From Lachnospiraceae bacterium (GTDB lineage Bacteria; Bacillota; Clostridia; Lachnospirales; Lachnospiraceae): 53,075 nucleotides of DNA. Below the pieces are notes generated by a model. The model did no database searches. It was given only the letters and a program-made list of their open reading frames with translations, and was not told the origin of the DNA. Made by a program: the position numbers and the translations under genes. The stretch covers positions 1 through 53,075 of the forward strand of contig JAJQGP010000068.1 in the NCBI GenBank assembly GCA_021200475.1. Reading direction: 5' to 3'. Of this stretch, positions 869-16,993 are shown in pieces (position 1 is the first letter of the stretch; each line of letters opens with the position of its first letter).

Positions 869-1290
869 AGCCAAAGATGGTTCCAGAACCCATGAGCCTC
901 TTTGCACATAATATTCAGTTGTATAAACCCGGTATTTTACCAACCAGCCATCCTGCGCCCGCAGGGTGGCCTTTCTTCCCGGAAATGGCCAATATAATAG
1001 AGCCCCTCAAGGCCCTACCCATAACCATCCGGTATTAAACTGTCCGGTTGTAAAAATGTTATCAGTATCATAAAACTTGCCTTTCTGTATCTGTATAGGT
1101 TTATGGCATGGCTGCCACCTACTTGCCACCCTAATTGAATGCCAGAACCACTCCTGCTTCTGAGAAATACCGTGGCAGGGGGTGGTGTTCTGCACCCTTC
1201 TTTTCCCCAATTTCTTACCAAATGCCCAGAAGGCCTGTAGTTAAGCGGCCTGAGGGCGTTTTCCTACCGCCATTTCACGGAGCGCCGGAG
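869..1290. other. Non-coding right part of the ISL3 element up to the broken glycosyltransferase
   Basis: No credible gene is seen here. A strong hairpin sits at 947-970. The homology of the minus-strand GT2 fragment stops near 1290, so the insertion boundary is placed at about 1275-1295. I could not identify the terminal inverted repeat because the left end is outside the window. Confidence 0.4.
947..970 (+). terminator. Hairpin downstream of the transposase unit
   Basis: GCCATCCTGCG and CGCAGGGTGGC form a stem of about 11 bp (one G-T pair) with a 2-nt loop, followed on the plus strand by CTTTCTTC. This is consistent with a rho-independent terminator for the transposase and the small gene. 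Confidence 0.5.
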
Positions 1291-1487
1291 ATACCGTGAA
1301 TTGATGAACAGTCGGCAGAACTCTTTTCTATTTCAGCCCAAGTCCGATCAGTAGAGCCATCATCCACGCATACAAGCTCGTATGGGATTTCAGCAGACTC
1401 TAACACAGTACCTATCGCCGAAACAGCCAATGGCAACATTTCTTCTTCATTATACGATGGAATTATCACTGATAATAGACCACGCAT
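1275..1487 (-). pseudogene. Family 2 glycosyltransferase, N-terminal fragment cut by the IS
   Basis: The start ATG at 1487 has an AGAAGGGA site upstream. The first 55 residues are a GT2 N-terminus: LLSVIIPSYNEEE followed by ELVCVDDGSTDRTW, the nucleotide-binding beginning with its DDGS motif. They resemble the complete GT2 at 48593-49561. After HGIS, where the family continues with FSRNFGKE, the sequence changes to unrelated DNA and reaches a stop, so more than 200 residues are missing. It was probably the last gene of the polysaccharide operon before the ISL3 insertion. It would have transferred a sugar to a lipid carrier or a glycan. It is not functional as it stands. Confidence 0.75.
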
Positions 1488-1582
1488 TCAATCCCTTCTC
1501 CGTTTTGATAGTTATAGTTTTATGTCCCAACGAAATAATAGAAACTATTTTTAGGTAACTGCTACTGCAATAATCTCTCTCA

Positions 1583-2649
1583 TTATTTCAAATTGTACTT
1601 CTTATTATAGACATAATGCAAAAGCCAAAAGGCGGGTTCCATAGGGAGCAAGAAAGTCAATAATTTCAAAAGCGTGTTTCTTCTTGGAGCCGATAAAGCT
1701 TCCTTCCTGAATGCATAAGGATATACAGCATTTATCTTCAGTTCCTTCAACTCAGCCTTTACAAATTCTTTATCAGGAAGGCAAGCTAGAGTATAAGCCA
1801 CGTTTTCCTGAGAATGATGAATCTTATTCTGAAGTTCTGCTTCAAATTCATCTGGCACTGTAACTTTCTGACCCTCATAAGTCTCAAGCATTTCACGCAT
1901 TGCCTTATAATAAGCCACGGCCCTTGAAGCACTTTTGGAATGCATCACAGAAGTATTTCTGATTCTATAGTAATAACAAATTGCATCACATTTATGCCGA
2001 TTAGGCTTAGAGAGTCTCATGTTCCAGTAAAACAGAGTATCCTCTTGAGCTATCATTCCTTTATTGAAGAATAAGCTATTATTCAACAAATATTCACGTT
2101 TAATAGGTCCTGCCCAAATAACATTCATTTTTATACCCTGCTCATCTGTAGGCAAATCATCTGATCTTTCAAAATTCAGATTACCCACCGATATTTCTGG
2201 TATGGGATTTCCATCAATGAATCTCTGGTAGTTTCCCAATAGCACATCCGCATTTGACTCCTTTACATATTGCAGCATAGGCATAACAGCAGAAGCATTC
2301 AAAACATCATCAGGATCAATGAACCAGATGTACTTTCCATTTGCTTCTCTTATCAATCGATTTCTACTATATGACACGCCACGATTACTTTCATTCCTCA
2401 AAATACGCATTTGAGGATTTCCCTTTTTTATTTGCTCCAAAACGCGAGCAGAATCATCTGTAGAACAATCATCAACACATACAATTTCATAGTTTATGAC
2501 ATTTAAATCAACCGCTACAATAGAATCTATACATTCTTGTAGATATGCAGCTACGTTAAATACAGGGAGACAAAAGGAAACTTCAATTTCTTCAGAATCG
2601 GAATACCCCCCCCCCGCAAAATTTCAACAGTATTATTCATATATTTCAT
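1583..2649 (-). CDS. Phase-variable GT2 glycosyltransferase, out of frame here (G10)
   Basis: Start ATG at 2649 with AAGGAG upstream. Codons 12-15 are a run of ten G (2606-2615 on the plus strand as C10). As written the frame runs off after the run and stops after 32 codons. With 8 or 11 G the frame opens into YSDSEEIEVSFCLPVFNVAAY, then CVDDCSTDDS, and on to the end at 1583, giving a normal GT2 of about 354 residues. Downstream parts include a complete GT-A fold (SYSRNRLIREANGKYIWFIDPDD, with the DxD-type metal site) and a C-terminal helical region. The frame is otherwise intact, so this looks like a switchable gene in its OFF state and not a decayed one. The acceptor and donor sugars are unknown. 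It is transcribed after the CapE-like gene. Confidence 0.8.
2606..2615 (-). repeat. G10 homopolymer near the 5' end of a GT2 gene
   Basis: Ten C on the plus strand, read as G10 in codons 12-15 of the minus-strand gene 1583-2649. Lengths of 8 or 11 give the full protein; 10 gives a 32-codon product. This position, right after the start, is typical of a contingency-locus tract. Confidence 0.85.
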
Positions 2650-2678
2650 GTACTCCTTAAAATCTTTTTGTGTCCATC

Positions 2679-3716
2679 TTACTTATTCATGCTGGAAAGC
2701 TCATCTTGAATATAGCTTAAAGCCAACAATTTTTCTTTTACTTGTTCTACATCCAACAAGGCAGTATTGCTAGAGTCAAACTCGTGCAACGGGTTTCTTT
2801 CCGTATCACCGTTAACAAAGTAGTTATCATAGTTAAGATCCCGGTTGTCAGCGGGTACACGATAAAAATCCCCCATGTCTACAGCATGAGAACACTCCTC
2901 ATTGGTAAGCAAGGTTTCATACATCTTCTCACCATGACGAATACCAATAACCTTAATCTCTGTCGATGGATCGAACAACTCTTTCACAGCTTGGGCAAGG
3001 ACACCAATTGTACAAGCCGGTGCCTTCTGAACGAGGATATCACCGCTTGTCCCATGTTCAAAAGCAAACAGAACTAAATCAACCGCCTCATCAAGCGACA
3101 TGATGAATCTCGTCATATTAGGCTCAGTGATTGTAATCGGTTTTCCCTGCTTAATCTGGTCGATCCACAGTGGAATAACAGAGCCCCGGCTGCACATAAC
3201 ATTACCATATCTGGTGCAGCAAATCTTGGTGTTCTCAGAGTTTCTTGCCTTGGCCACAGCAACACGTTCTTCAAGGGCTTTTGTGACGCCCATAGCGTTA
3301 ACGGGATAAGCAGCCTTATCAGTAGACAGGCAGATTACGCACTTAACCCCTTCCTCAATTGCGGCAGTCAGAACATTATCCGTTCCGAGTACATTAGTGC
3401 GTACAGCTTCCATCGGAAAGAACTCGCAAGACGGAACCTGCTTAAGAGCTGCCGCATGGAATATGTAATCAACACCGTGAATTGCCGTGCGAACAGAGTT
3501 AATATCTCTAACGTCACCGATAAAGAATTTAATCTTACCTGCAACCTCTGGCATGTTCGCTTGGAATTCATGGCGCATATCGTCCTGCTTCTTCTCGTCT
3601 CGTGAAAATACACGAATCTCCCCGATGTCGGTTTTAATAAAACGGTTTAATACAGCATTACCGAAGGAACCAGTGCCTCCTGTGATCATTAATGTTTTTC
3701 CTGCGAAGAGTCCCAT
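2679..3716 (-). CDS. CapE/FlaA1-like UDP-GlcNAc 4,6-dehydratase
   Basis: 345 residues, an extended short-chain dehydrogenase that should oxidise and dehydrate UDP-GlcNAc to a 4-keto-6-deoxy sugar nucleotide (inverting type) for the polysaccharide. Seen: an N-terminal NAD(P) site TGGTGSFGNAV (residues 12-22), RVFSRDEKKQ (typical for the FlaA1/CapE group), the STDKAAYPVNAMGVTKALEE active-site segment where Met replaces the usual Tyr of YxxxK, and the TRYGNVMCSRGSVIPLW block. Start ATG at 3716 has GGAGG upstream. CapF- and CapG-like partners of the FucNAc pathway are not in the window, so the final sugar cannot be named. It lies between the flippase and the switched-off GT2. Confidence 0.85.
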   Translation of the reverse strand: MGLFAGKTLMITGGTGSFGNAVLNRFIKTDIGEIRVFSRDEKKQDDMRHEFQANMPEVAGKIKFFIGDVRDINSVRTAIHGVDYIFHAAALKQVPSCEFFPMEAVRTNVLGTDNVLTAAIEEGVKCVICLSTDKAAYPVNAMGVTKALEERVAVAKARNSENTKICCTRYGNVMCSRGSVIPLWIDQIKQGKPITITEPNMTRFIMSLDEAVDLVLFAFEHGTSGDILVQKAPACTIGVLAQAVKELFDPSTEIKVIGIRHGEKMYETLLTNEECSHAVDMGDFYRVPADNRDLNYDNYFVNGDTERNPLHEFDSSNTALLDVEQVKEKLLALSYIQDELSSMNK

Positions 3717-3736
3717 AATAATTCATCCTCCAATTT

Positions 3737-5251
3737 TTATTTGTGATTAAATATCTTTGATAAAATCGATTTCATCATATTTTTTTCTGCATCATTTGCT
3801 CCAAACAGTATAAAGCCAAGAGCAAATATCAGCACGTAAACAGTACCACCAGCCAAGAAAGATACAACAGTGTTAGAAATGAAATGTGTTAGAATAAGAG
3901 CTGCTACTGCTCCAATTACTTGGTAGATTAATATTCCTTTATATGCTTTTCTATAAAGGTAAATCATATTCATATTCAAAGCTTTATCGTAATATACATT
4001 TAAAAGGGTAACTTGAAAAATCATTGTTGATACAGCCGTAGCACTAGCCGCGCCAACGATCCCCCACTTATCAATCCAAATAACCGTTAATACAATGTTA
4101 ACCACAGTGGTTAGAATGAGTGATATTGTTCTCGGTTTTGTAAGATTCATAACATTTAAAACATCTTGCATAACCCCGTTCGTTAAATAAATACACATTG
4201 GAACGCTCACTATCAGTGCTATCGTCCAAGCTTCCAAATATGCCGAGCCATATACAATAGTTATGAACTCCCGTCCTACTGAAATAAACCCAAACAGTAC
4301 AGTACCTCCAATAATCGTTACTAGCCTACACGGTTGAATAATAGAATCTACCAGTTGCCTACCTCTTAGGCCACTAGAAACACTGCGAGCAATCTGTGGA
4401 GTATACATTGAAATTGGAACAGTCCCCAGAGAAGAAAATATTTGAAATATATACATCGCAACGGTATACAATGCGACTGTTTCTGGGTCAATTTTAATTC
4501 CGATAACAAACTTATCAACATTACTATTAGCTTGATTTGACAATCCCTGTATAAATATCGCAATACTTAAAGGAAGTGAACTTTTAAGGATTGTCCTATC
4601 AAAGAATCTAAAATTAAATCTGATATGATAGCGTTTTCTGCAATATATGTATGTTATTGTGCATTGCACCAGGCTTAATATAAAATCAACTATTGCAATA
4701 ATAATTGAATACTTCCAATTGAGAATCAGGACTACCAGCAAAAATACACGAAGAACCTGTCTAGCAATTGACATTATAGAATTATAAGTATATTGTTCAA
4801 ACGCAAGGACAATCCCGCATAATGTCGAATTGCAGAATGAAAAAACCAAATACAATGTCACAAAGATAAAAATATATCTGCCATATATTATCTGTGAAGA
4901 TGTTAATGAATTGGCATAGATGAAGTCTATTGAAAAATAGAATATTGCTGAGACAATCAGAATTAAAACCACAAGTAAGCATGTTTCGCCCCATATTGTA
5001 GCTGCATTTTTGTTAATCTCAACCTCATCTGCATCGTTGCTGCGGCAAACAGACAAATTACGAGTCATTACCGTTCCAGTACCAAATTCTAATAGTACCA
5101 GATAATTTGCAAAAGAAGCCATCGTCTGATATACACCATACTCGGTGTCTCCAAGCATACGCAGCAAAAAGGATGACAAAAACAGCCCAACAAGCATATT
5201 TAAGAATGTATTTGTGTACGATAATATAATTCCAGCTCTTCTACTCTTCAT
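3737..5251 (-). CDS. Wzx-type polysaccharide flippase
   Basis: 504 residues, about 12-14 hydrophobic segments along the whole length, MATE/MOP-fold type. The N-terminus (GIILSYTNTFLNMLVGLFLSSFLLRMLGDTEYGVYQ) is the usual start of Wzx/RfbX family proteins. It should move undecaprenyl-diphosphate-linked repeat units across the cytoplasmic membrane to the EpsG-like polymerase encoded two genes upstream in the operon. The start at 5251 has AAGGAG upstream. Codon use and base composition are AT-rich like its neighbours. No frame damage or homopolymer longer than 6 was seen. Confidence 0.88.
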   Translation of the reverse strand: MKSRRAGIILSYTNTFLNMLVGLFLSSFLLRMLGDTEYGVYQTMASFANYLVLLEFGTGTVMTRNLSVCRSNDADEVEINKNAATIWGETCLLVVLILIVSAIFYFSIDFIYANSLTSSQIIYGRYIFIFVTLYLVFSFCNSTLCGIVLAFEQYTYNSIMSIARQVLRVFLLVVLILNWKYSIIIAIVDFILSLVQCTITYIYCRKRYHIRFNFRFFDRTILKSSLPLSIAIFIQGLSNQANSNVDKFVIGIKIDPETVALYTVAMYIFQIFSSLGTVPISMYTPQIARSVSSGLRGRQLVDSIIQPCRLVTIIGGTVLFGFISVGREFITIVYGSAYLEAWTIALIVSVPMCIYLTNGVMQDVLNVMNLTKPRTISLILTTVVNIVLTVIWIDKWGIVGAASATAVSTMIFQVTLLNVYYDKALNMNMIYLYRKAYKGILIYQVIGAVAALILTHFISNTVVSFLAGGTVYVLIFALGFILFGANDAEKNMMKSILSKIFNHK

Positions 5252-5266
5252 TAAAAAATAAACTCC

Positions 5267-6382
5267 TTACCTTTTTCGCACTTCAGCTTCACTCATGATC
5301 CCTGATGCAAATTGTTCTCCCTCTAAGTATCTACAAAAACAATCCACAGCATTTGACGGAGAATATTGAGTTGTCATGGTTGCTATAGCATTTTGAGAAA
5401 CAAGATTGCGTAAATCACTATCTTCTATCAGTTGCTTAACGCACGAATAATATTTATTATAATCATTCCACCTGCAAGAGAAACCGTTCTCTCCATCTCT
5501 AATCATAAACGGAACTGCCCCCATAGCTGAAGAAGCTACGACAGTGCATCCTGCTGTCATTGCCTCATTAACGACAACACCCCAACCTTCATGATAATCC
5601 GATGTAGCGAGAAAAATATCTGACAGACCCATGAGCTTATGTATTTCCTGTGGTGGCATTGCATCTTTTAAATCTACATAACCAACCAGTCCTTTATCAC
5701 TAATCATCTTCAATAGGTTATCTTTCAACTCCCCATATCCGACTATTGTTAATCTATACTCAATATCATCCCTCTTTAATTTTTCAGCAATACGTATGCA
5801 GGTTTCGGGATGTTTCCACTTTATGAATCTTCCAGTCCACAAAATTGAGATAGGAGTACCCCCCCCACGATTATACGAGTCTATCTCGATATTTGGGAAA
5901 TAACCCCATTGTAACATTTTGCCTTTATAACCGGAGATGCGAAGGCCATATGGGAGAAACGCTGAAGCACATAAAACAGCAAAATTATTATCTTCACGAA
6001 TTCTTCTACGAACACTTTTCAAAGTACTTGGAATTATGCAACGCCACGTACCTTTCTTGTAAAATCTCTCGCTAAAAAGAAAACATTTCTTCCCCTGTGC
6101 CAGAAACGAATCAAAAATTCTGTCAGTAACTCCACCTACAATTCCTACATCTGCCCAGTTTACTACATCTTTCAGCAATTCATTTCTTACCACTTTGTCT
6201 TCTGGTAAGACAACTGTATAAGAATATTTATCGCTTAAATCAGTAAAACCAGCATCAATCCTATATTGCGGTAATTTTCCAAAAAGTACAGTCTTGAAGT
6301 CATTACCTAACCTATCATAAAAGGCATTACATAATCCCTCTTGATGTGTTGAAAGAACATCCAAAAAAATCGCAAGCTTCAC
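5267..6382 (-). CDS. Phase-variable GT4 glycosyltransferase, in frame here (G8)
   Basis: A family 4 (GT-B) glycosyltransferase. I place the start at the GTG at 6382 (MKLAIFLDVLS), which has GGAGG eight bases upstream. An ATG pair at 6395-6400 is in frame but lacks a site. The second Rossmann half carries ISILWTGRFIKWKHPE, LTIVGYGELKD and the C-terminal ATSDYHEGWGVVVNEAMTAGCTVVAS block with its donor-binding Glu residues. A G8 run (5859-5866) codes for the linker RGGGT at about residue 173, between the two halves, and is in frame. Gain or loss of one G would cut off the entire donor-binding domain. It follows the polymerase gene. Confidence 0.85.
   Translation of the reverse strand: MKLAIFLDVLSTHQEGLCNAFYDRLGNDFKTVLFGKLPQYRIDAGFTDLSDKYSYTVVLPEDKVVRNELLKDVVNWADVGIVGGVTDRIFDSFLAQGKKCFLFSERFYKKGTWRCIIPSTLKSVRRRIREDNNFAVLCASAFLPYGLRISGYKGKMLQWGYFPNIEIDSYNRGGGTPISILWTGRFIKWKHPETCIRIAEKLKRDDIEYRLTIVGYGELKDNLLKMISDKGLVGYVDLKDAMPPQEIHKLMGLSDIFLATSDYHEGWGVVVNEAMTAGCTVVASSAMGAVPFMIRDGENGFSCRWNDYNKYYSCVKQLIEDSDLRNLVSQNAIATMTTQYSPSNAVDCFCRYLEGEQFASGIMSEAEVRKR
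5859..5866 (-). repeat. G8 homopolymer in GT4 gene (ON length)
   Basis: Eight C on the plus strand, read as GGG GGG GG(T) in the linker between the two halves of the GT4 at 5267-6382. At 8 the frame is open. Plus or minus one would truncate the protein. Confidence 0.8.
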
Positions 6383-6415
6383 TCTAATACCCTCCATCAT
6401 CAGAAATTCAATTTC

Positions 6416-7459
6416 TTACCAACAGAAAGAGTATGGTAAGAATTCACTTCCATTGAGTCTATATGCAAAAAGGATTATGGATATAAACGCTATCAATATC
6501 CTCATCAAATCCTTCTGATCCTCAACTACTATCTCCTGGGCATTTGGCAATAAGACAAGCTGTGAAAACATGAAATAGAAACTTATACGTTCAGCGGCTA
6601 AAGCACCAAAATACCTCATCAGATAGCAAACGACCCCAGCTAACAACATGAAAAAGGCAGGAGTCTGCTCATTTCCGTCCTTAATGTCTTCATTCCATAC
6701 AACAGTTAAAAGAATAATTATTAGATACACAGCTACCGCTATGAATCCGCCGCTACTTACTGTGTCATAGTATTCTCTGTCGAACAATGTATTTGCAAAT
6801 TCCATTATTCGGCTTAATGAAGAAAATATAATAACAGAAGCTATCATTAAGATCACTATTGTGCGGCCATTATATTTCAATCCACAAAGGATATATACTA
6901 TCAAAAACACAATTGCAGTCTGATGAAAAAGGGTTGCAAACGTCACTAAAATGATAAACGGTATGAGATGTCTTTTCTTTGCTTGCTCATAAGCAAATAA
7001 GCATATACACATAGCTAAACTTTGTCGCATACCCTGCAATTCAAACGTAAACAAGCCCAAGGTTATAAATAATACAATAGACAACGCAATATCTTTGCTG
7101 TTATGATCCACAAAATAAAAGAGGACGATAATATATATTAGAGAAGTGATAACCAACAGCCACTGAGGATCCTTAAAAACTCTCGATAAACCATAAATAA
7201 AAAACTGAGAACCAATTTCATATGAATCGGGATTATAAAAATTACTCCATGTTGTGCTTTGGATTGCGCGTTTCATAGCCTCATAATAATGCGTTGTATC
7301 TGCGCTGCCCAAACTATAATTGCGACACCCCATCACGACAAACATAGCTATGCCACAAATTATATAAAATCTACGTTTCTGTTGTTTATCCTCGTTCAAA
7401 TCTGGAAAAGCATATCCCAAAACTAGTGGAAATGCTGCCAGAACTAGATAAATCGCCAT
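6416..7459 (-). CDS. EpsG-family (Wzy-like) polysaccharide polymerase
   Basis: 347 residues, almost entirely hydrophobic, with about ten membrane segments. The N-terminal pattern, a hydrophobic segment followed by a polar loop and CRNYSLGSADTTHYYEAM, is typical of the EpsG family (the motif xGxDTxxY after the second segment). Another family-like block is FELQGMRQSLAMCICLFAYE. It should polymerise repeat units on the outer face of the membrane. Start ATG at 7459 has AGGAG upstream. It lies between two GT4 genes in the same operon. Confidence 0.82.
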   Translation of the reverse strand: MAIYLVLAAFPLVLGYAFPDLNEDKQQKRRFYIICGIAMFVVMGCRNYSLGSADTTHYYEAMKRAIQSTTWSNFYNPDSYEIGSQFFIYGLSRVFKDPQWLLVITSLIYIIVLFYFVDHNSKDIALSIVLFITLGLFTFELQGMRQSLAMCICLFAYEQAKKRHLIPFIILVTFATLFHQTAIVFLIVYILCGLKYNGRTIVILMIASVIIFSSLSRIMEFANTLFDREYYDTVSSGGFIAVAVYLIIILLTVVWNEDIKDGNEQTPAFFMLLAGVVCYLMRYFGALAAERISFYFMFSQLVLLPNAQEIVVEDQKDLMRILIAFISIILFAYRLNGSEFLPYSFCW

Positions 7460-7469
7460 TATTGTTCTC

Positions 7470-8720
7470 CTAATTTATAATATCGTCGTACATGCTAATA
7501 AAATCTTTTGTATTCTTTTTTCTGTCATGGATTTTCTCCGCGAAAGAAATAGCATTATTTGAAATTGAATTGGCGAGCACTGGATTTTCAAATATCTCGC
7601 AAATTCGATATGCTAGCAATTCATAATCTGGAAAATCGTAGAAAAACCCACTCTTCCCGTCTTCTAACAAATCAGTCATACCACCTCTAAAAGCTGCAAT
7701 ACTTGGTGTGCCAATGTGGATTGCTTCCCTCAGGGTCGCGGATGCATTTTCGCAAGCTGATGGAATAACGCAGACATTCGATTTCTGCATGATACCTATA
7801 ACTCCGTTAGTATCCAGTCTATTAAGAAACTCCACGTTATCTTCTAAGTCTAATTCCCTTATCAATTTAGAGATATACTTTGTATATCCTGATGTGATGA
7901 CTAACTTACCTTCTATCGCTTTAGGTGCAAGGAAATATGCCTTCACATCCGGATATCTTCTTCTAACAAGATCAAGAGCCTTTAAAACAATATGTCCGCC
8001 CTTCAAAGGTGTCTGTGCAGATGTAGATGCATATATCGTGTGCTTTTCACAAGTAACTAGCTCCCATTTCTTCGCATTATAAAACTCATCCCTCAAGTTA
8101 TAATAGCAACGATAGTACTTCAGATTTGGATTTATCGAAAGCATAAATGCCTTGTCCCAATCTGTCCTGCCCGTAGCATAGCTCATCTTGGAAATAATTT
8201 CTCGTTCATAACGTGAATTTTTCAAAGATAGGATTTTTCGTTCTATCATGCCATTCAAATGTAGATTTTCTTTCAAAGTACGATAATGTAATAGCTCTCT
8301 TATGGTCAAATCCGCTGTGTGAGATTTAGAAATCTTTGAAACTACACCCTGTATAGAAAGGACATATTTCTTATCAGGATAGTTTCTCAAGTACGAAATA
8401 CTGTGTGTATATTCTGTACCATGAATATGTACGATTTCTGGTTTAAAGTCATCTTCAACCTGATTCCAATAGCGAATCAAACTCTTGTTATAAAACATAA
8501 ATGATTTGCTTCCACCTGGAATTAAGTAATATGTAATTTCTTCAAGTTGAATTTTCTTAAACTCTTTTCCATACACACATGCTATCGCCAAATTGATATT
8601 TTCCGATTGTGATATGGATTTTGAAAGTTCAAACATCCACGTTCCGCTGCTCCCCGTTTGAATGCCTAATGCTTTTGCCAAGTCCGGCAAAACCATGATA
8701 ACGATCCATAAAATATTCAT
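7470..8720 (-). CDS. GT4 glycosyltransferase, paralogue of the next gene, without a G tract
   Basis: 416 residues. GT-B fold with NILWIVIMVLPDLAKALGIQTGSSGTWM at the N-terminus and the C-terminal SACENASATLREAIHIGTPSIAAFRGG block. It is clearly a paralogue of 8823-10066 over its whole length (same LADxLGxQTxSSGTWM start, same HIHGTEY and SIQGV motifs). At the place where the paralogue has a G8 run, this gene codes the same RGG with AGA GGT GGT, so it cannot slip there. The ATG at 8720 has GGAAGG upstream with long spacing. The substrate is unknown. The two genes probably arose by tandem duplication and may add related sugars. Confidence 0.85.
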   Translation of the reverse strand: MNILWIVIMVLPDLAKALGIQTGSSGTWMFELSKSISQSENINLAIACVYGKEFKKIQLEEITYYLIPGGSKSFMFYNKSLIRYWNQVEDDFKPEIVHIHGTEYTHSISYLRNYPDKKYVLSIQGVVSKISKSHTADLTIRELLHYRTLKENLHLNGMIERKILSLKNSRYEREIISKMSYATGRTDWDKAFMLSINPNLKYYRCYYNLRDEFYNAKKWELVTCEKHTIYASTSAQTPLKGGHIVLKALDLVRRRYPDVKAYFLAPKAIEGKLVITSGYTKYISKLIRELDLEDNVEFLNRLDTNGVIGIMQKSNVCVIPSACENASATLREAIHIGTPSIAAFRGGMTDLLEDGKSGFFYDFPDYELLAYRICEIFENPVLANSISNNAISFAEKIHDRKKNTKDFISMYDDIIN

Positions 8721-8822
8721 TTGTCTGTCCGCCTTCCTTAATCATATAATAAGCTGACAGCACATACATAGACAAAGAAAGACTTTGAATCTTATAAACA
8801 GGGTTGAATCGTCTTATTTCTT

Positions 8823-10066
8823 TTATTCAAGTATTTCCCTGTACATTGCAAGATAATCTCTCACATTTTTATCCCTGTCATGCGCTCTCTTAGCTTTTAC
8901 TTTAGCGGCTTCGGAAAACGAATTACAAAGTTCATCGTTTTCGAACAGCTGAGTTATGCGATTTGCAAGATATGGTACCTCCTGATAGTCATAGAGGAAT
9001 CCATCTTCCTTATCCGAAACAAAGTCCGCAACCCCCCCCGGAAAGAAGCGATGACAGGGCAACCTAAGTACATAGCTTCTCTTAAAATCAATGATGTTCC
9101 TTCAATTGCAGACGGAATAACCGTAATTCTACTCTTCAACATATTCTGACACATTTCCTTTCCTGACTGTCTTCCCAGAAAAACTATATTATTTTCTAAG
9201 CCGTGCTTTTTAATCAGCTTATCTACGTATTTGGCATAAGCGGAATTAACGATTAATCGTCCATTTTGACCCATCCCCGGTATTCTAAGTTTAATATCCG
9301 GGTATTGATTCTTCAGCAGTGCTACAGCCTTTATTAACTGATGTACGCCCTTAAGTGGAGTACCTCCCGGATTCGTAAAAATAGAATGTTTCTCAGCTTT
9401 ATTACACTCCCATTTTGGCGAGGAATATAATTCTTCCCTTAAATTATATTCAATTCTAAATACCTTTAGCTTAGGATTAATGGCTTTGCATGTGGAACTA
9501 TCCCAAGTATTTACAGCATTTATATATTGAACTCGTTGCAAAATTTCTGTCTCATATTTTGCATTTCTTTTATGAATGAAGTGCATTTCAATTTCCCCAT
9601 TCATATGTATATTTTGCTGCAAGGTTCTGCCAAAAATAAAGTAGCGAAGCGGAAGCTCTCCGAAATCGACATCTTTTATACGGTTTAAAATTCCTTGGAT
9701 AGAAACAACCGCAGGAACATTCGGACATCCCCTTAAAAAAGCCAAACCGTGTGAGTACTCTGTTCCATGCAAATGAACCAAATCCGGCCGGAAGTCATCG
9801 TTAATTTTTCTCCATATAGACTCATACTTTTTTGTATAGAACAACATATTTTTCCCCGTTCCTGGAAGGAGATAATAGGTTATCCCTTTAACATTCTCTT
9901 TGCAATATGAATCCCCATGCACGCATGCGATTGCCAAATCACAATCCACCTGTGTAGAAAGCATTTTGGATATATCAATCATCCATGTTCCGCTGCTACT
10001 TGTCTGAACTCCTAAATGATCTGCCAAATCCGGCATCACCATATTTGTTATCCATAGAATTCTCAT
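8823..10066 (-). CDS. Phase-variable GT4 glycosyltransferase, frameshifted at a G8 tract
   Basis: Start ATG at 10066 with AGGAG upstream. The frame runs through an N-terminal half like its paralogue at 7470-8720 and the block SAIEGTSLILREAMYLGCPVIASFRGG. At residue about 342 it meets a G8 run (9032-9039) and leaves the conserved frame, ending at 8954 after 370 residues. The true C-terminus (VADFVSDKEDGFLYDYQEV to YLAMYREILE, ending at 8823) is open in the next frame. With nine G the protein would be 414 residues and align end to end with the 416-residue paralogue. As written the last 70 residues, including the helix that closes the two domains, are replaced. A switchable OFF or altered state is inferred. 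Confidence 0.82.
9032..9039 (-). repeat. G8 homopolymer in GT4 gene (OFF length)
   Basis: Eight C on the plus strand. It codes the conserved FRGG motif of the GT4 at 8823-10066. Nine (or six) G would restore the reading frame that matches the paralogue; eight shifts it. Confidence 0.85.
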
Positions 10067-10067
10067 G

Positions 10068-11378
10068 TCATTTCTCCTTATTACTATTGGCTGCTTTCAT
10101 AAATGTGGAAACAAACCTCTCTTTTATTAAATCTTCATTATGATTGCGTTTACCACATTCAAATGCATTTCTCCCGTAGAAATTGAGTAGTTCAGGTTGT
10201 TCTACGAGCCTTCTCAGATTTCCCTCCACTTCACTATAATCGGTTGAAATAACAGCAGCATCATTTTCCCGGAGATACTCTATTGGCGCAATAGTCTCAT
10301 CTCCAATAGCAAAGATACATTTACCGCTCTTAAAATAGTCCGTCAGCTTAGTAGAGAAAGACATTCTGGCTATGTAACGATTTTTCTTTTCCAACGATTC
10401 AACAAAAACAACTATATCCGCAGCCTTTTGAATTGCCTCAATCTCCGTATGAGAAACACTTCCATGATGATGACAGCCATTGGAATTTAAGATTTTCATT
10501 GTTTCTGCTTTTAGCTCTGTAGGCGAATAAATATCAAGCACAATCTTTTCGCCGTCCTGATTAATCTTTTCCATAGCCTTTGAAATTGCCACAAGAGATG
10601 CATCTCTTCCGATCAATAGATTGCCTGTATAAACCATCCTAATCGGACCAGACAGAACAATCTCTTGATATTCCAGGTTTGAGAAATCAACGCCCTTAGT
10701 CAAAACAACACTGTGCGTATCGAATAACAAGTCGGTCTCTTTAGCCTGCGTCTGCGTGATAGTAAACATTTCATCACAGTTCTTAGCCAATTGCTTAACA
10801 TATTTTCTAAGCCAAGCTCTATGAAAATATGAAAGTGGACCGTGGCAATTTACATATGAGTAGTTATCATCCGAAAGGTAACAGACATACGGCTTAGGAT
10901 ACTTCTTTAAAATATAGCGTTGTATGCGTCCAGTAAAAACCACCGGATAAATAGGTATAAAATATACATCCGGGTTTACTTCCTCAATAAACTGATCCAG
11001 CTCTTTGGTCTCCCATTTTCCAAATAACCACACATATTCACGTGCAATCGTCAGAAGCCAAGACTTCTTTTTATGTCCAATAGAATACAATTGTTTTTCC
11101 TGTTGCATTGCTCTCTCTGATTCATCATCTGCAACGCCGCTATTTTCAACTTGACGTCCTACAGGCTTCCGCGTAATAACGCTTTTTATTATGGCGTTCT
11201 CTGAAATCTGGAAAAATTTATTGCATACACTAGTATTGGGCAAAGCGGCACGAGTATATATTTGTGCAACTCTATCCGAGTCCCAGTATTTAAACAAATC
11301 AGTCTGTGTGTGAATGCCACTATCAATGTTCCATTCATTCAGAGATACAGATAAAATCATTGGTTTCTGCTCGCTCAT
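10068..11378 (-). CDS. GT4-like glycosyltransferase
   Basis: 436 residues, GT-B type. The central part has VNPDVYFIPIYPV, and the second half has GPIRMVYTGNLLIGRDASLVAISKAME and KIVLDIYSPTELKAE. The C-terminus (FSTKLTDYFKSGKCIFAIGDETIAPIEYLREND) is the nucleotide-binding part of these enzymes. The N-terminal LSVSLNEWNIDSGIHTQTDLFKYW is less usual. Start ATG at 11378 with AAAGGG upstream. The gene ends two bases before the next gene starts, so the operon is tightly packed. There is no homopolymer tract. The donor sugar is not predictable. Confidence 0.75.
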   Translation of the reverse strand: MSEQKPMILSVSLNEWNIDSGIHTQTDLFKYWDSDRVAQIYTRAALPNTSVCNKFFQISENAIIKSVITRKPVGRQVENSGVADDESERAMQQEKQLYSIGHKKKSWLLTIAREYVWLFGKWETKELDQFIEEVNPDVYFIPIYPVVFTGRIQRYILKKYPKPYVCYLSDDNYSYVNCHGPLSYFHRAWLRKYVKQLAKNCDEMFTITQTQAKETDLLFDTHSVVLTKGVDFSNLEYQEIVLSGPIRMVYTGNLLIGRDASLVAISKAMEKINQDGEKIVLDIYSPTELKAETMKILNSNGCHHHGSVSHTEIEAIQKAADIVVFVESLEKKNRYIARMSFSTKLTDYFKSGKCIFAIGDETIAPIEYLRENDAAVISTDYSEVEGNLRRLVEQPELLNFYGRNAFECGKRNHNEDLIKERFVSTFMKAANSNKEK

Positions 11379-11380
11379 AT

Positions 11381-12361
11381 TTACCCTTTCACTTTATCTA
11401 GCAAAGATAACATGAGTAGAGCACCTCGAAATCCAAGAATTCTGCTTACGATATGCACCATTTTGGGGCGCTTACTCATGCTAAACTTTAACAAGAATCG
11501 CATATCTTTTATACAATCATAATAAACCGACTTTTGGGGGTCATCTGCCCTTACATAGCAAATCATCAAATTAGCATAATACTTTGCCATTATGCCGCCA
11601 AAAGCCTCTCGCCTTTGCTCTGAAATACACGAATTGTCTGTACCCCCCCCAGACCATTTTTTCATAAGATATATATAGTCTTTAAGATTCTTTAACTTAT
11701 TCGTTTTGGATGTAGAACCCTCTCGCTGTCTATATGCTATATAAGGCTTATCAATCACAGATACTGATGTAATGCAAGTTAGCAAGTGACACATCCACTC
11801 CATATCTTCACCTACTAACCCCTCTTCGAATTCAATGTTGTAATCCACAAGCACTTGTCTATGAATAGCCTTGAGCCACGGAGCACCATAAAAAGCATCA
11901 TTCTTTACCAGCGAAAGTAAGATTTCTTCGACGCTATCCATTCCCTCAGCTGCTGCCATTGAGAAAGCACATGTTTCAGGCGTGTCCTTGCCATCATAAT
12001 ACTTGCAAAATTTATACATAATCAATTCAGAAGAGGTGCTCTGTGCCTTTTCATATATGTCTTGCAAGAAATCATCTGATATAATGAAATCATCGCTATC
12101 GATAAAAATAACGTATTCACCGTGAGCAAGCCTAAGTCCAGCATTCCTTGCGGAAGCTTGCCCTGCGTTCTTTTGATGAACAACTAAAGAATTATCGTGG
12201 AAGCTCTTGAAATCGTCGCAAATGTGACCACTGCCGTCAGTCGAACCATCATCGACCAAAATTAATTCATAATCATGGAATGTTTGATTTTCGATGCTGC
12301 TAAGACACTGTGACAAGTATTTTTCAACATTAAAAATTGGTATAATTATACTAAAGTACAT
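11381..12361 (-). CDS. Phase-variable GT2 glycosyltransferase, in frame here (G8)
   Basis: 326 residues. A GT-A fold family 2 enzyme with FSIIIPIFNVEKYLSQCLSS, ELILVDDGSTDGS, AGLRLAHGEYVIFIDSDDF (the metal-binding DSDD) and then the EDMEWMCHLL acceptor-side motif. A G8 run at 11643-11650 codes WSGGGTDN at about residue 237, after the catalytic domain but well before the end, and is in frame. A one-base change would remove the C-terminal 90 residues. Start ATG at 12361 has GGGGGAG upstream. It transfers an unknown sugar in assembly of the repeat unit. Confidence 0.85.
   Translation of the reverse strand: MYFSIIIPIFNVEKYLSQCLSSIENQTFHDYELILVDDGSTDGSGHICDDFKSFHDNSLVVHQKNAGQASARNAGLRLAHGEYVIFIDSDDFIISDDFLQDIYEKAQSTSSELIMYKFCKYYDGKDTPETCAFSMAAAEGMDSVEEILLSLVKNDAFYGAPWLKAIHRQVLVDYNIEFEEGLVGEDMEWMCHLLTCITSVSVIDKPYIAYRQREGSTSKTNKLKNLKDYIYLMKKWSGGGTDNSCISEQRREAFGGIMAKYYANLMICYVRADDPQKSVYYDCIKDMRFLLKFSMSKRPKMVHIVSRILGFRGALLMLSLLDKVKG
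11643..11650 (-). repeat. G8 homopolymer in GT2 gene (ON length)
   Basis: Eight C on the plus strand, coding Gly-Gly-Gly in the GT2 at 11381-12361. In frame as written. Confidence 0.8.
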
Positions 12362-12363
12362 AG

Positions 12364-13536
12364 TTACTCCCCCTTAATTGACGAGGCAATACTATTCATA
12401 TCCAGCAATAAATTATTGAGCATTATTGGTCTGTCAAAATATTTCTCCGCACGCTTTCGTCCGGCATTTGCTAAAGATACTCGCAACGCTTCATTGGAGT
12501 ATACCTCAATCATTGCCTCGGCCAATGCTTCAGGATTTTTTGCTTCAACAAGTATTCCGGAAATGCCATTCTCTACGACTTCCGAAGGGCCAGGAACATT
12601 TGTTGAAATAATGGGTAGTGACATCCCCATTGCTTCCTGTAAAACCTTTCCAAACCCTTCTCGATATGTAGGATGTGTTAGCACGTCAAACATAGCCATA
12701 TGCTTATAGACATCTTCTGGTGGTACGTTTCCCGTAAAAACGATATTGTGATTTCTTCTGGCTCGATCCATCATCTCAGTAGGAACTGCATTTGTGTCAT
12801 CTACCATTCCCACCAATACCAGCCATGCATTTTCTCGGTTGATTTGCACTTTTTCAAATGCCTCAATCAACTCAGAGATTCCTTTATCTCTGTTTATGCG
12901 TCCAACATACCCATAGACAAAAGCATCCTTTGCAATCCCATATTTTTCTCTTAAGGCTTTTCTCTTCTTTTGATGATCAAAAGAATCACACGCAGAAAGT
13001 TCAACTCCAACCGTTCCTCCAATGCCAACAACAGAGATTTTATCACCGGAACATAGACCTTCATCTATGGCGAGCTGCCTATTCATCAGGCTTACTGCTC
13101 TAATCGTTATTGAAAAAGCACACGTCATTTTCTCTATCATTTTGAAAATGACTCTTTTGCCTCCTGAAGCCGAAACATAACGCAACCCAGCTTGGCAATA
13201 TACTCTGGTATGAATTCCAGCCAATATTCCTCCGATCGAAGCATAAAAAGCTGCATTAGGAGTCATGTAGTAGATAATGTCAAATTTGTTTTCTTTAAAG
13301 ATATGTCTCAGTTTAAGAGGGATTCTAAACAAATCAGAAACGCTTATTCCTCTACTCATTTTCAAGTCAATACATTGAGCATAATCAGAATTTCTCTCTG
13401 CGAACCCATCATCCATGTTACAGATCAAAGTAACATCGTATCCGTTTTTTGAAAGATTACGCATATTATCAACTATGAACCAATCCATAGTTTTAGATAT
13501 TGTTGATAAGGCACAGATTTTTACTTTTCTATTCAC
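12364..13536 (-). CDS. GT4 glycosyltransferase
   Basis: About 390 residues. I place the start at GTG 13536 (MNRKVKICALSTIS) with GAGGG nine bases upstream. A TTG at 13551 is also in frame but overlaps the previous stop. Seen: the N-terminal half with DIIYYMTPNAAFYASIGGILAGIHTRVYCQAG, the second half VYGYVGRINRDKGISELIEAFEKV, AWLVLVGMVDD, and the THPTYREGFGKVLQEAMGMSLPIISTNVPGPSEVVENGISG block with the family's EGFG and E-x7-E donor site. It resembles capsular GT4 enzymes such as those adding the first or second sugar. It follows the aldolase gene closely. Confidence 0.87.
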   Translation of the reverse strand: MNRKVKICALSTISKTMDWFIVDNMRNLSKNGYDVTLICNMDDGFAERNSDYAQCIDLKMSRGISVSDLFRIPLKLRHIFKENKFDIIYYMTPNAAFYASIGGILAGIHTRVYCQAGLRYVSASGGKRVIFKMIEKMTCAFSITIRAVSLMNRQLAIDEGLCSGDKISVVGIGGTVGVELSACDSFDHQKKRKALREKYGIAKDAFVYGYVGRINRDKGISELIEAFEKVQINRENAWLVLVGMVDDTNAVPTEMMDRARRNHNIVFTGNVPPEDVYKHMAMFDVLTHPTYREGFGKVLQEAMGMSLPIISTNVPGPSEVVENGISGILVEAKNPEALAEAMIEVYSNEALRVSLANAGRKRAEKYFDRPIMLNNLLLDMNSIASSIKGE

Positions 13537-13547
13537 CGCTTTTGCCC

Positions 13548-14390
13548 TCAAATCTTGTTTTTAATATCATTTACCAACTCAGTCACAACGACATGGTTCT
13601 TTAAAAGTTCCTCTTCCGTCATGCTTTCAGCACTTTTTTCACAGGCGCGGATATCCATTATTCCCTTCTTAAAGACTTCCTTTAGTTCATCCATGTCAGT
13701 CACAATGTTTGCATTGCAAAAACTTCTGGACAATATAGCCGCTTGTGAACCAATTCTATAATGTTCCCTAATGATGTACTCAGCAGGCAAAGTCCCATAA
13801 CCAACTCTCGCGATTCCGCCAAATCCAAAACGTATATTGTATTCCTGCATAAGCATCGCTAATCTATCTACTGTACCATCAGCCAACAGTTCAAACATAA
13901 AATTGAGATGATAGGCCAGGTGCAAGTCGTTAAGTCCAATATGAAGCTCATCAAAGCCACCGGCTTTCACGATTTCCTCAGCTGACTCACAGGCCTCTTT
14001 TGTTTCCAAAAGAAGCATTGTCTTAACCTTCCCATTAACAATAGATAGAAACTGGTCAACCTCGTCTCTGCTTCTATACATTGGAAGCATTAAAATATCT
14101 GCGCCGCATGCGATGGCGGTTTCTATCTCTTCTTTTGATGAACTATATTTACTCGTTGCTACATGAATTGGGTTTACACGAACCAATAATTCAGATGAAC
14201 CAGATGCAGTAACATTTTTTATATTTTCAATATCTGAAAAAGTATGATGTGATTTCACTGTATTCATACCAGCTTGTCGATCTTCTTTTCCTATGTACTC
14301 CATGTCAACAAATAGTCTATTAACACCGGCATCCTGCGCAATCTCTGCTACCTGCGGACTATTAGTTATATACATTAACGATAATGCCAT
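13548..14390 (-). CDS. HpcH/HpaI-family aldolase/lyase in the polysaccharide operon
   Basis: About 280 residues. A TIM-barrel of the HpcH/HpaI (citrate lyase beta, 2-keto-3-deoxy-acid aldolase) superfamily: NRLFVDMEY near the start, ELLVRVNP with the substrate Arg, CGADILMLPMYRSRDE, LLLETKEA with the metal-binding Glu, and ELHIGLNDLHLAY with the metal-binding Asp. Such enzymes join or split pyruvate or a similar unit and an aldehyde. I start it at ATG 14390, seven bases after AGGAG; a TTG at 14396 is less likely. Being second to the sugar transferase in the operon suggests it makes an unusual keto-acid building block or decoration. This is inference only. Confidence 0.78.
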   Translation of the reverse strand: MALSLMYITNSPQVAEIAQDAGVNRLFVDMEYIGKEDRQAGMNTVKSHHTFSDIENIKNVTASGSSELLVRVNPIHVATSKYSSSKEEIETAIACGADILMLPMYRSRDEVDQFLSIVNGKVKTMLLLETKEACESAEEIVKAGGFDELHIGLNDLHLAYHLNFMFELLADGTVDRLAMLMQEYNIRFGFGGIARVGYGTLPAEYIIREHYRIGSQAAILSRSFCNANIVTDMDELKEVFKKGIMDIRACEKSAESMTEEELLKNHVVVTELVNDIKNKI

Positions 14391-14423
14391 ACTCAATCTC
14401 CTATCGAATATTGTTAATAAGCT

Positions 14424-15041
14424 CTACTTCTCGACCTTCTCTTTCTTCTTCATCTCTCCTGTCCCACCTTCAACAACGCCGTCTTCTCTAAGCACTGCGA
14501 AGATTGAACCGAAGAAGCACCTCAAGTCCATCCCAAAGCCCATACGCTTGACATAGTCACCATCCAGCTTGGCTTTGACAGGAATCTCAAGCTCATCCCG
14601 TCCGTTAATCTGTGCCCAACCGGTCAGTCCAGGCTTCACGTCATTTGCTCCATACTTGTCTCTTTCGGCAATCAGGTCATCCTGATTCCAGAGGGCTGGG
14701 CGTGGACCAATGATGCTCATATCGCCTTTGAATATATTCCACATTTGAGGAAGCTCATCTATGCTCGTTTTCCGAATAAACTTCCCGACCTTCGTTATGT
14801 ACTGCTCTGGGTGTTCCATCAAGTGTGTGGGAATGTCCGGCGTAGCTACTTTCATGCTGCGAAATTTATAAAGCGAAAAATAGGATTTATGAATCCCCAC
14901 ACGTTTCTGCTTGAAGATTGCAGGGCCAGGGTCTTCTATTTTTATTGCAATCGCCACGATTCCCATTGGAATCGCCAGAATAATCAGCCCAAGACCGGAA
15001 AGCACAACATCAATAAAGCGTTTGAAAAATTTCAAATACAC
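14424..15041 (-). CDS. Initiating sugar-phosphate transferase (PglC/WbaP C-domain type)
   Basis: 205 residues, the minimal monotopic phosphoglycosyl transferase. One N-terminal hydrophobic segment (residues 10-32) carries the start KRFIDVVLSGLGLI, followed by DPGPAIFKQKRVG, FSLYKFRSM, the catalytic TSIDELPQMWNIFKGDMSIIGPRP block with the Asp-Glu pair, and GLTGWAQINGRD. It should move a sugar phosphate from UDP-sugar onto undecaprenyl phosphate and so start repeat-unit synthesis. The start is GTG 15041 with GGGGAGAG just upstream. The tail is strongly charged (KKKEKVEK). Its pairing with the NeuD/PglD-like acyltransferase upstream suggests a bacillosamine-type or other N-acylated first sugar. 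Confidence 0.92.
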   Translation of the reverse strand: MYLKFFKRFIDVVLSGLGLIILAIPMGIVAIAIKIEDPGPAIFKQKRVGIHKSYFSLYKFRSMKVATPDIPTHLMEHPEQYITKVGKFIRKTSIDELPQMWNIFKGDMSIIGPRPALWNQDDLIAERDKYGANDVKPGLTGWAQINGRDELEIPVKAKLDGDYVKRMGFGMDLRCFFGSIFAVLREDGVVEGGTGEMKKKEKVEK

Positions 15042-15076
15042 AGTTCTCTCTCCCCTATATCAACATCCACAACTGC

Positions 15077-15634
15077 TCAAAAGAAACTCGGCTCAGTGCC
15101 GTACTGTCGCTTATGTTCTTCAATCCACTTATCGTCCGTTCTTCCATAGTACACAGCACCATAATCAACTTTCGTCATGTCAGCTACTGTGGACATAGAC
15201 GGTACAATCGCCCCGGCGTTGATATGGCAGTAATCGCCGACCACAGAATCATGATCCACAATCGCTCCTGCCGAGATAATGCAACCTGCACCAATTTTGC
15301 TGTTGGTTTGAACCACAGCTCCCGCCATCACCACAGTACCCCTGCCGACAGAAACACTCGGACTAATGTGGGCTGCCGGATGAATCAGTGTGGCTATCTC
15401 ATACCTATCCATGAGAAATTCCTGATATTTCTTTCTGGCTACCGCATTCCCGATCGCCACAAAAGCGTAATCGAATTGACCTGTGAATTTATCGTAATCA
15501 GATAACTTGCCAAGCACATCAGACTGGCCTGTATTATCGTCAAGAAATGCTATGTTCTCATATTGTCTTGTCGCCTCGGCCACTTCCCGAACAACTCGTC
15601 CGTGACCTCCTGCTCCAAGTATCAGTAAATTCAT
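15077..15634 (-). CDS. NeuD/PglD-like sugar O- or N-acyltransferase
   Basis: 185 residues. N-terminal Rossmann-like LILGAGGHGRVVREVAEA (residues 4-21) followed by a left-handed beta-helix of hexapeptide repeats (residues 90-160: SVSVGRGTVVMAGAVVQTNSKIGAGCIISAGAIVDHDSVVGDYCHINAGAIV) with the catalytic His in VDHDS. It should transfer an acetyl group from acetyl-CoA to an amino-sugar nucleotide. Start ATG 15634 is preceded by GAGGAGAAATAGAAA. It is the first gene of the compact operon in the transcription direction, next to the sugar transferase. Confidence 0.88.
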   Translation of the reverse strand: MNLLILGAGGHGRVVREVAEATRQYENIAFLDDNTGQSDVLGKLSDYDKFTGQFDYAFVAIGNAVARKKYQEFLMDRYEIATLIHPAAHISPSVSVGRGTVVMAGAVVQTNSKIGAGCIISAGAIVDHDSVVGDYCHINAGAIVPSMSTVADMTKVDYGAVYYGRTDDKWIEEHKRQYGTEPSFF

Positions 15635-15654
15635 TTTCTATTTCTCCTCGGTAT

Positions 15655-15758
15655 GGTTATCTCCAACCGACAGCTGTTCCCATAACCACAGCTCCCTGTG
15701 ATTATCTCCGCCACCTCTATACCAGCAGATTATCTCCGCTGGACACTCGATTATCCCC
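15655..15758. repeat. Four spaced GATTATCTCC-like repeats
   Basis: GATTATCTCC or a one-base variant occurs at 15655, 15700, 15728 and 15749, in the same direction, upstream of the acyltransferase gene. It could be a protein-binding array or part of the degenerate intron end beside it. Confidence 0.4.
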
Positions 15759-15761
15759 GAC

Positions 15762-15788
15762 CATCGGTTTGCCTGTAGCATCTTTTTC
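15762..15788. repeat. 27-bp repeat shared with 18781-18807
   Basis: CATCGGTTTGCCTGTAGCAT and the following seven bases match 18781-18807 with four differences. At 18787-18824 the second copy extends into a near-perfect palindrome; this copy does not. Confidence 0.5.
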
Positions 15789-15794
15789 CGACAC

Positions 15795-15872
15795 GGGCGA
15801 GTAGATACGCCCCTTACGAGGCGTACCCCCTACACAGAACCCGGCGTGCGGCTTTTCCGCACCGGCTCCCTA
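15795..15872 (-). mobile_element. Group II intron 3'-end remnant (domain V/VI-like)
   Basis: Read on the minus strand, 15837-15868 begins GAGCCGG, forms an inner stem GTGCGG/CCGCAC with an A-rich loop and a CG bulge, and closes with CCGGGTTC. It keeps the AGC triad of catalytic domain V. A following hairpin (TACGCC/GGCGTA region, 15795-15832) fits domain VI. One extra base in the lower stem compared with a canonical domain V, and no maturase gene nearby, suggest a dead remnant. Confidence 0.5.
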
Positions 15873-15959
15873 CAGAACTAATTACGCACAGTTATCAACC
15901 ATAGATACTGACATATATCTTGGGCTTCGCCATAGGATAGACTTTCGGCTGTGCAGTTT

Positions 15960-16150
15960 AGCGTGGGTTTTGGTTCTTCCATTTTCGTAGGTGATTTTGC
16001 CGTTTTCGTTGGTGTTTCACCCACATATCCGTAAGTTCTTCCATTTCTATAGGTGTCTCCTGAAACTTTCCGTTTTACTCGGTGTTTTTCATACATCACC
16101 ACTTTTTCCGGAAGTTCTTCTGTTTCCTTCGGTGTTTCCCAGATCCATAG
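15960..16150 (-). repeat. Degenerate tandem repeats of about 25-45 bp
   Basis: On the minus strand, units begin ACACC and continue with a GAAAnnGGAAGAA-like core (for example TAGAAATGGAAGAAC and ACGAAAATGGAAGAAC), five times with uneven spacing. The stretch is open in one frame and would give Thr/Pro/Lys/Glu repeats, but has no convincing start. Function unknown. Confidence 0.35.
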
Positions 16151-16202
16151 CACTTTCTAAACGAATGACATACAGGAGTGTTCTCCATCGGCTACTGCCT
16201 TC

Positions 16203-16293
16203 CCGCATATATGATTACAAAACATCTGTAAAGGGTGCTCCGCATCGCTGCCGCGACAAGCCCTTGACAGATCTTTTGTAATCATATGTACGG
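16203..16293. repeat. 91-bp palindromic element with 33-bp arms
   Basis: Arms 16203-16235 and 16261-16293 are inverted copies with four mismatches (both contain ATATGATTACAAAA), around a 25-base loop. It is too long and lacks a T run for a simple terminator. It fits a MITE- or REP-like mobile palindrome. Confidence 0.65.
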
Positions 16294-16300
16294 TAATCAA

Positions 16301-16322
16301 GCAGAAATCAGCCGATTTCTGC
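16301..16322. other. Perfect 9-bp hairpin
   Basis: GCAGAAATC and GATTTCTGC flank the loop AGCC, eight bases after the larger palindrome and about 85 bases downstream of the end of the regulator gene. It may act as a transcript end or protein site. Confidence 0.4.
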
Positions 16323-16960: not shown

Positions 16961-16993
16961 ATTTTTTACACCTTCCCAAAAAAAGCGCAATTT

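Follow-up and report, generated by a model that had tools for sequence, protein, structure and literature searches.

Four poly-G tracts in a polysaccharide operon of a Lachnospiraceae bacterium as probable phase-variable contingency loci

Introduction

Does a bacterium that carries long runs of G inside several glycosyltransferase genes of one polysaccharide operon switch its surface glycan by slippage at these runs, or are the runs products of chance, of imperfect assembly or of ordinary decay? The question is raised by a stretch of 53,075 nucleotides from a Lachnospiraceae bacterium (contig JAJQGP010000068.1 of assembly GCA_021200475.1), here called the window, in which a sequence-only reading had pointed out four poly-G tracts as contingency loci. 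Here, we analysed the tracts and their host genes together with the host genome (G000, a draft assembly of 180 contigs) and with further genomes of the genus and family. With a probability of roughly 80%, we propose that the tracts are contingency loci at which slipped-strand phase variation would change the surface glycan.

Results

A run count over the window returned C10 at 2606-2615 and C8 at 5859-5866, 9032-9039 and 11643-11650 on the plus strand, to which all window coordinates refer; the operon genes all lie on the minus strand, so that these C runs are G runs of the coding strand. The longest remaining G/C run of the window is 6, in agreement with the earlier statement that no other run of seven or more exists. 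Based on family matches, each tract lies inside a separate glycosyltransferase gene of one polysaccharide operon, in the same strand sense, as had been claimed. Homopolymers of this length class (at least 7-8 G within an open reading frame (ORF) or promoter) are expected at simple sequence repeat (SSR) contingency loci, for which PMC6321876 has a cut-off of 7. The tracts and their hosts are:

2606..2615, minus strand: tract T1, coding-strand G10, N-terminal to the GT2 domain; frame shifted (OFF)
1583..2649, minus strand: glycosyltransferase family 2 gene (GT2, Glycos_transf_2), host of T1; start region in one frame and catalytic domain in another, with the junction at T1
5859..5866, minus strand: tract T2, G8, coding for RGGGT just before the C-terminal domain; in frame (ON)
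5267..6400, minus strand: glycosyltransferase group 1 gene (GT4, Glycos_transf_1; family match), host of T2, open
9032..9039, minus strand: tract T3, G8, at a Gly-Gly position common to three homologues; frame shifted (OFF), C-terminal part replaced
8823..10066, minus strand: glycosyltransferase group 1 gene (GT4, Glycos_transf_1), host of T3; N-terminal frame ends at 8954, C-terminal segment open in another frame to 8823
11643..11650, minus strand: tract T4, G8, in frame (ON), coding for SGGGT in a C-terminal region of low conservation
11381..12361, minus strand: glycosyltransferase family 2 gene (GT2, Glycos_transf_2; family match), host of T4, open

Frame analysis bore out that two of the genes are in frame and two are shifted exactly at the tract. 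The reading frames of 5267-6400 and 11381-12361 run uninterrupted across T2 and T4; the start at 6382 given earlier for the T2 gene had to be corrected, as it lies later than the start of the ORF found. In the T1 gene, an ATG at 2649 behind AAGGAG opens a short dead-end frame, the GT2 domain lies in another frame and the junction between the two is the run itself. In the T3 gene, the expected C-terminal segment (ADFVSDKEDGFLY...) is found in another frame that starts at the run, and the N-terminal frame stops at 8954. Two of the four genes are thus shifted at the run, as expected if a change of tract length shifts the frame and truncates the product. A codon-usage test of the frames beside the tracts was dropped because the open genes of T2 and T4 came out as noncoding, and open-frame lengths were used instead.

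The places of the tracts could be compared with homologues in fetched loci for five of six matches of T2, three of four of T3 and six of 27 of T4; T1 had no homologue at the cut-off among these loci. At the place of T2, five homologues have unrelated sequence just before the C-terminal domain. Judged from the positions of T1-T4, the tract places could tolerate gain or loss of glycines as long as the frame is kept.

Could such a set have arisen by chance? Markov models of orders 1-4 predict 0.4 to 1.4 C runs of at least 8 per window and 0.07 to 1.05 in 1583-14396, the top values being inflated by the tracts themselves. When codons were shuffled synonymously within 12 operon ORFs, in an analysis that took in 39 of 41 ORFs, a mean of 0.12 runs of at least 8 resulted and the observed count of 3 was reached in 0 of 1000 shuffles (the run at 2606 lies outside these 12 ORFs, hence three were counted); resampling from window codons likewise gave 0 of 1000. 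At the level of the host genome, exact runs number 139 for G6 and 11 for G7, and 25 runs are G8 or more, compared to about 0.95 runs of at least 8 expected by extrapolation from G6 to G7. Four of the long runs, two on contig C3 beside N runs and two at the end of C162, were dropped as junk, which leaves 21 runs of at least 8 (11 G8, 9 G9 and 1 G10) against an expectation of 0.62 once two junk G7 runs are removed as well. The runs are thus far above the length distribution expected for this genome. Placement of four of these 21 runs within 9,045 bp has a probability of P = 0.0004 in a simulation, before the same strand is required. Base composition alone is weak evidence, and the genome-wide length distribution is the strongest argument: the four-tract set is not a product of chance.

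Two loci of the host genome, L010 on C3 and L027 on C162, consist of G/C-rich junk beside N runs or at the contig end and were treated as assembly artefacts. Loss of mismatch repair was considered as a cause and set aside: MutS is intact in the host, and MutL was not searched for.

Tracts of this kind recur in the genus. At least one G8 run was found in 43 of 47 genomes, G000 included, and in none of the other four; the 42 further genomes with tracts carry 2 to 47 each (one count per run). We fetched all 44 tracts of genome G037, 30 of the 47 of G035 and, from selected clusters in seven further genomes of the genus, another 24. The tract-centred regions of G037 hold four G6, two G7, 13 G8, 22 G9, seven G10, one G11 and one G12; as these regions were chosen for their tracts, what is informative is how rarely G6-G7 runs occur next to the tracts and how the lengths above 8 are distributed. 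Neighbouring tracts no more than 10 kb apart share their strand in all 16 pairs of G037 and all 14 of G035, compared to about 5 and 6 neighbour pairs within 10 kb expected under random placement.

Which genes carry these tracts? We scanned tract-bearing ORFs of at least 100 aa against Pfam (33 of G037, 25 of G035 and 24 of the selected set); the results cover 25 of 50 and 25 of 40 families with distinct proteins uncounted and hence are indications rather than rates. Among the families listed for G037 are GT2 (3), MptE-like (2), FkbM (2) and one each of GT4, GT8, Polysacc_synt_2, PGA_cap, TupA and choline-binding; those listed for G035 include acyltransferase (2), Wzy_C (2) and one each of Polysacc_synt_2, TupA, fucose pyrophosphorylase, MBOAT and pyruvyltransferase. 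Short-chain dehydrogenases (four in G037, two in G035), sensor kinases and HD-domain proteins are likewise among the tract ORFs. In the selected set, an acyltransferase was matched in seven of 24, a biased figure since some clusters were chosen by homology to the operon. Surface genes are the hosts in the operon and are seen in part of the G037 and G035 ORFs; outside the window, the hosts in G000 also comprise regulators, radA and yicC.

Across the 119 tracts that remain after junk removal (G037, G035, selected set and G000), 18 are sites where the same frame stays open for at least 240 bases in each direction, and 20 mark a change between two such frames; one of these 20 (L194 of G035) has an open frame on the opposite strand. 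A frame of at least 240 bases is open on one side only at 58 tracts and on neither side at 23. This measure undercounts shifts, as T1 and T3 themselves are among the 58. A few tracts point towards control of transcription. At two tracts of locus L198 in G035 (positions 2086 and 3855), the run fills most of the spacer between an exact TTGACA and an exact TATAAT, with spacers of 19 and 15 nt, and neither arrangement was matched in any of 300 shuffles; the two promoters are candidate transcriptional switches. Weaker promoter-spacer cases are L174 and L166 of G037 and L024 and L026 of G000. With up to three mismatches allowed to both boxes, 10 tracts have such a promoter, five of them among the 23 without an open frame, and most tracts have none.

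Further features of the tract surroundings were observed. In 79 of the 119 tracts the run is followed by T, and in 74 of 119 the second base behind it is A, a preference that is unexplained. In locus L170 of G037, neighbouring genes with tracts at 2540 and 3658 share 95% identical DNA after the tract; L206 and L208 of G035, near contig ends, have 68 identical bases in common before it. The tracts at these places may be recombination junctions, as the detected homology starts or stops there.

If the tracts slip, their lengths should differ between related sites. We compared the flanks of 161 tract sites, some places being held twice. A homologous site is G8 in G008 and G9 in G017, with flanks 82% and 97% identical, and three lipoprotein paralogues of G146, a genome of another genus (loci L215 and L216), carry G8, G9 and G8 directly behind the lipobox cysteine; of these, the copy with G9 is out of frame. 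Tract length therefore varies at some homologous sites and is constant at others. These differences bear on the idea that transcriptional slippage or ribosomal frameshifting makes a mix of products from one fixed DNA length, as a device for dosage rather than a switch. Long G runs can indeed let RNA polymerase slip. Such a device predicts neither DNA length differences at homologous sites nor tracts in promoter spacers, however, and we regard it as very improbable.

Several observations weigh against slipped-strand phase variation at the window tracts. Two homologous pairs are of equal length, G9/G9, namely L154-L170 (both flanks) and L165-L212 (one flank). None of the flank pairs involved the window, and no fetched homologue of its four genes carried a tract at the same place; operon DNA matched nine of 46 same-genus genomes in segments only, mostly in the dehydratase gene and never across a tract. 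A scan of the T4 protein against named genomes, sensitive to close relatives only, matched 13 stretches and no coding relative among them. The ON and OFF states come from one draft assembly, and length change within the strain is inferred. That two of four genes are OFF is no sign of selection in either direction and is compatible with drifting lengths. The earlier ON/OFF assignment hence holds for the frames as assembled, and their meaning in the cell is subject to the same caution. In viral contigs, the exact flanks of T2 and T4 had no matches.

The host genome adds to these objections. Outside the window, G000 has 17 tracts. In radA and in a LacI-type and an AraC-type regulator, the frame changes at a G8 run; yicC and an AMP-binding enzyme stay open across G9 runs; the other 12 tracts are intergenic or undecided. 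Runs in G000 are therefore unspecific to surface genes, and not every run is an adaptive surface switch. The designation as poly-G contingency loci is well supported by the genomic excess, the pattern in the genus and the length differences at some homologous sites elsewhere; a weaker point is that surface genes are only some of the hosts in this genome. The radA gene (L023 on C99, tract at 1832) is split into two frames at its G8 run; of 46 same-genus genomes, 42 have it at full length in a single frame, two have it broken at contig ends, and in two it was not found. The split is either a real loss or a warning on the assembly. Together with the regulator frameshifts, it means that such runs are simply unstable in G000 or that the assembly is imperfect there, and either way the case for every run being a selected switch is weakened.

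Might the OFF states at 2606 and 9032 then be miscounted homopolymers in genes that are intact in the cell? The shifted radA, a housekeeping gene, the single draft assembly in 180 contigs and the junk on C3 and C162 speak for such errors. Miscounts by one base, however, create no G8-G9 runs: exact G7 runs in G000 (11) do not outnumber G8 (11) and barely outnumber G9 (9), and the same shape is seen around the tracts of G037 and G035. Two controls, both weak, point in the same direction. The window has 15 A/T runs of at least 7, of which the 12 in listed genes are all open, in a list that holds open ORFs only. Of the 11 exact G7 runs in G000, eight were fetched; the frame is open on both sides of three, five are undecided and none was scored as shifted, by a measure that also misses T1 and T3. 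Six ORFs lie at these G7 runs, and the four scanned comprise a solute-binding protein, a peptidase and a glycosidase, the fourth matching no family. All in all, assembly or sequencing error is an improbable account of the two OFF genes.

Neutral instability is closer to the preferred explanation. A run of about 8 G would lengthen and slip, and the frameshifts would be ordinary decay under weak selection rather than an adaptive switch. Both accounts share the same slippage and overlap, differing in whether it has a selected function, and our confidences in them are not mutually exclusive. The runs in radA, the regulators, yicC and intergenic DNA of G000 fit neutral instability, as do OFF fractions that agree with drift. 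The clustering of four runs in one operon (P = 0.0004) argues against it, and so do the recurrence in glycan genes of other species, the same-strand clustering in G037 and G035 and the placement of tracts in a few promoter spacers and directly after a lipobox. We therefore consider neutral instability unlikely as the full explanation of the window tracts.

How would phase variation act in this operon? Besides the four tract genes, it contains the following genes (family matches unless stated otherwise):

2679..3716, minus strand: nucleotide-sugar dehydratase/epimerase (Polysacc_synt_2, FnlA-like; under the NCBIfam cut-off)
3737..5251, minus strand: polysaccharide flippase (Polysacc_synt, Wzx-like)
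6416..7459, minus strand: EpsG-family protein, likely polymerase
7470..8720, minus strand: glycosyltransferase group 1, without tract
10068..11378, minus strand: probable glycosyltransferase, without tract (weak Glycos_transf_1 match under the Pfam cut-off)
12364..13551, minus strand: glycosyltransferase group 1, without tract
13548..14396, minus strand: HpcH/HpaI aldolase-like protein
14424..15041, minus strand: initiating sugar-phosphate transferase (Bac_transf)
15077..15634, minus strand: PglD/NeuD-like acetyltransferase

With Bac_transf, seven glycosyltransferase-like genes, Polysacc_synt and EpsG among its family matches, the operon is of the Wzx/Wzy type, and a tract is carried by four of its seven glycosyltransferase-like genes. 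We suggest that slipped-strand mispairing during replication adds or removes G in these four genes and that any length change other than a multiple of three would put the gene out of frame. Cells of one clone would then differ in the transferases they make and, in consequence, in their surface glycan. Beyond the frames themselves, this proposal assumes tract lengths that change within the strain, inactive OFF proteins, an altered glycan and selection on the outcome, e.g. by phages or antibodies. In a Wzx/EpsG-type pathway, the usual effect of losing a transferase is a halted or truncated repeat unit and not a new polymer. Since the transferases act in series, the 16 forms calculated earlier from four independent switches are an upper bound; distinct polymers are likely fewer, and some states may lack polymer.

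The surroundings of the operon were examined as well. A comparison of the operon with phages gave no match and that with plasmids a single one, covering 6% of the operon, to a Bacteroides plasmid; a mobile origin of the operon is thus unsupported by these comparisons. Upstream, 16409-27439 holds a phage-type integrase, a helicase with helicase-associated repeats and two Schlafen/AlbA ATPase-like genes, which suggests a mobile island adjoining the polysaccharide locus. A scan of 1000-18900 for promoters and terminators was uninformative, with 62 promoter-like sites compared to 53.9 in shuffles. Rfam places a GA-cis RNA (RF02987) at 51185-51267 on the plus strand.

To what extent do such runs occur beyond the genus? 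We surveyed 160 genomes of the family that are at least 90% complete, two from this genus and a single one for each of 158 further genera, with junk runs kept. The description of the operon as Lachnospiraceae-like, made from the sequence alone, fits this family of at least 159 surveyed genera and a CspB-type germination protease domain; the assignment itself is unproven. The median count per genome is 3 for G8 or more and 10 for G7. A Bonferroni-significant excess of G8 or more over the pooled ratio (870 to 2511) was found in 10 of the 160 genomes, G000 included, and not in the other 150. Among the genomes rich in long runs, G068 has 33 runs of G8 or more vs 5 of G7 and G095 has 39 vs 2; the opposite extreme to G095 is G200 with 0 and 26 exact G7.

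Three other genera (G146, G127 and G055) contributed 29 tracts, 20 of them with an ORF of at least 100 aa, of which 16 were scanned against Pfam. Surface-type matches are GT2, GT4, an acyltransferase in three, and a hexapeptide and a GH43 match below the cut-off; the other matches are a peptidase, a permease and a phosphodiester glycosidase, one ORF has weak matches to families of unknown function only and five have none. A protein scan with the FnlA-like protein found at least 591 relatives; the best 80 loci kept, from several phyla (1.29 Mb), hold seven runs of at least 8 in six loci, two of which are from one metagenome-assembled genome. Such runs thus occur outside the genus, too.

Discussion

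The four tracts show the sequence features expected of SSR contingency loci: long coding-strand G runs within ORFs, frame shifts at two of them and an excess far above the genomic expectation. We thus interpret them as a known kind of switch that probably operates in a new group. On a larger scale, we lean towards the view that several lineages of this Clostridia family each evolved a poly-G phasome of Campylobacter scale, combining translational switches in capsule and glycan genes, promoter-spacer switches and post-lipobox lipoprotein switches. If so, slippage would rank among the main sources of surface diversity in gut commensals and would largely have gone unrecorded; surface variation in these bacteria is often framed in terms of DNA inversions. 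OFF genes would then be misread as pseudogenes in strain comparisons and metagenome assemblies, and studies on phages, antibodies and colonisation would miss clonal diversity. The scale of tracts in this group deserves a test at the level of reads; tract lengths can be counted in existing ones. Among the papers listed in our literature search, judged by title and start of abstract, none treats poly-G phase variation in glycan operons of Lachnospiraceae or Clostridia; the lists were in part cut short and leave out most subscription journals, which falls short of a proof of absence.

How do the tracts compare with known systems? Site-specific invertons of gut bacteria (PMC11892184) resemble the present case as phase variation near surface functions in commensals; they act by DNA inversion instead of homopolymer slippage, and the words 'homopolymer' and 'slipped' are absent from the main text of that paper. 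Closer in mechanism is the pilus switch of Bifidobacterium breve (PMC9187656), which likewise relates to replication slippage at intragenic G tracts for a surface structure of a Gram-positive gut commensal. There, pilus genes in two clusters of the strain studied are affected and slippage was measured, whereas we describe four glycosyltransferases of one operon from sequence. The Campylobacter phasome (PhasomeIt, PMC6321876) differs in that our host is a Clostridia-type commensal with a tail towards G8 and some housekeeping and regulatory tracts, known here from assemblies and not from populations. In common with our tracts, those of Campylobacter are poly-G on the coding strand, there mostly inside ORFs. 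Lengths peak at 9 and 10 in Campylobacter (53% and 26%) and at 9 in G037 (22 of 44), and the 5 to 81 phase-variable genes per Campylobacter strain compare with 0 to 47 tracts per genome in the genus studied here.

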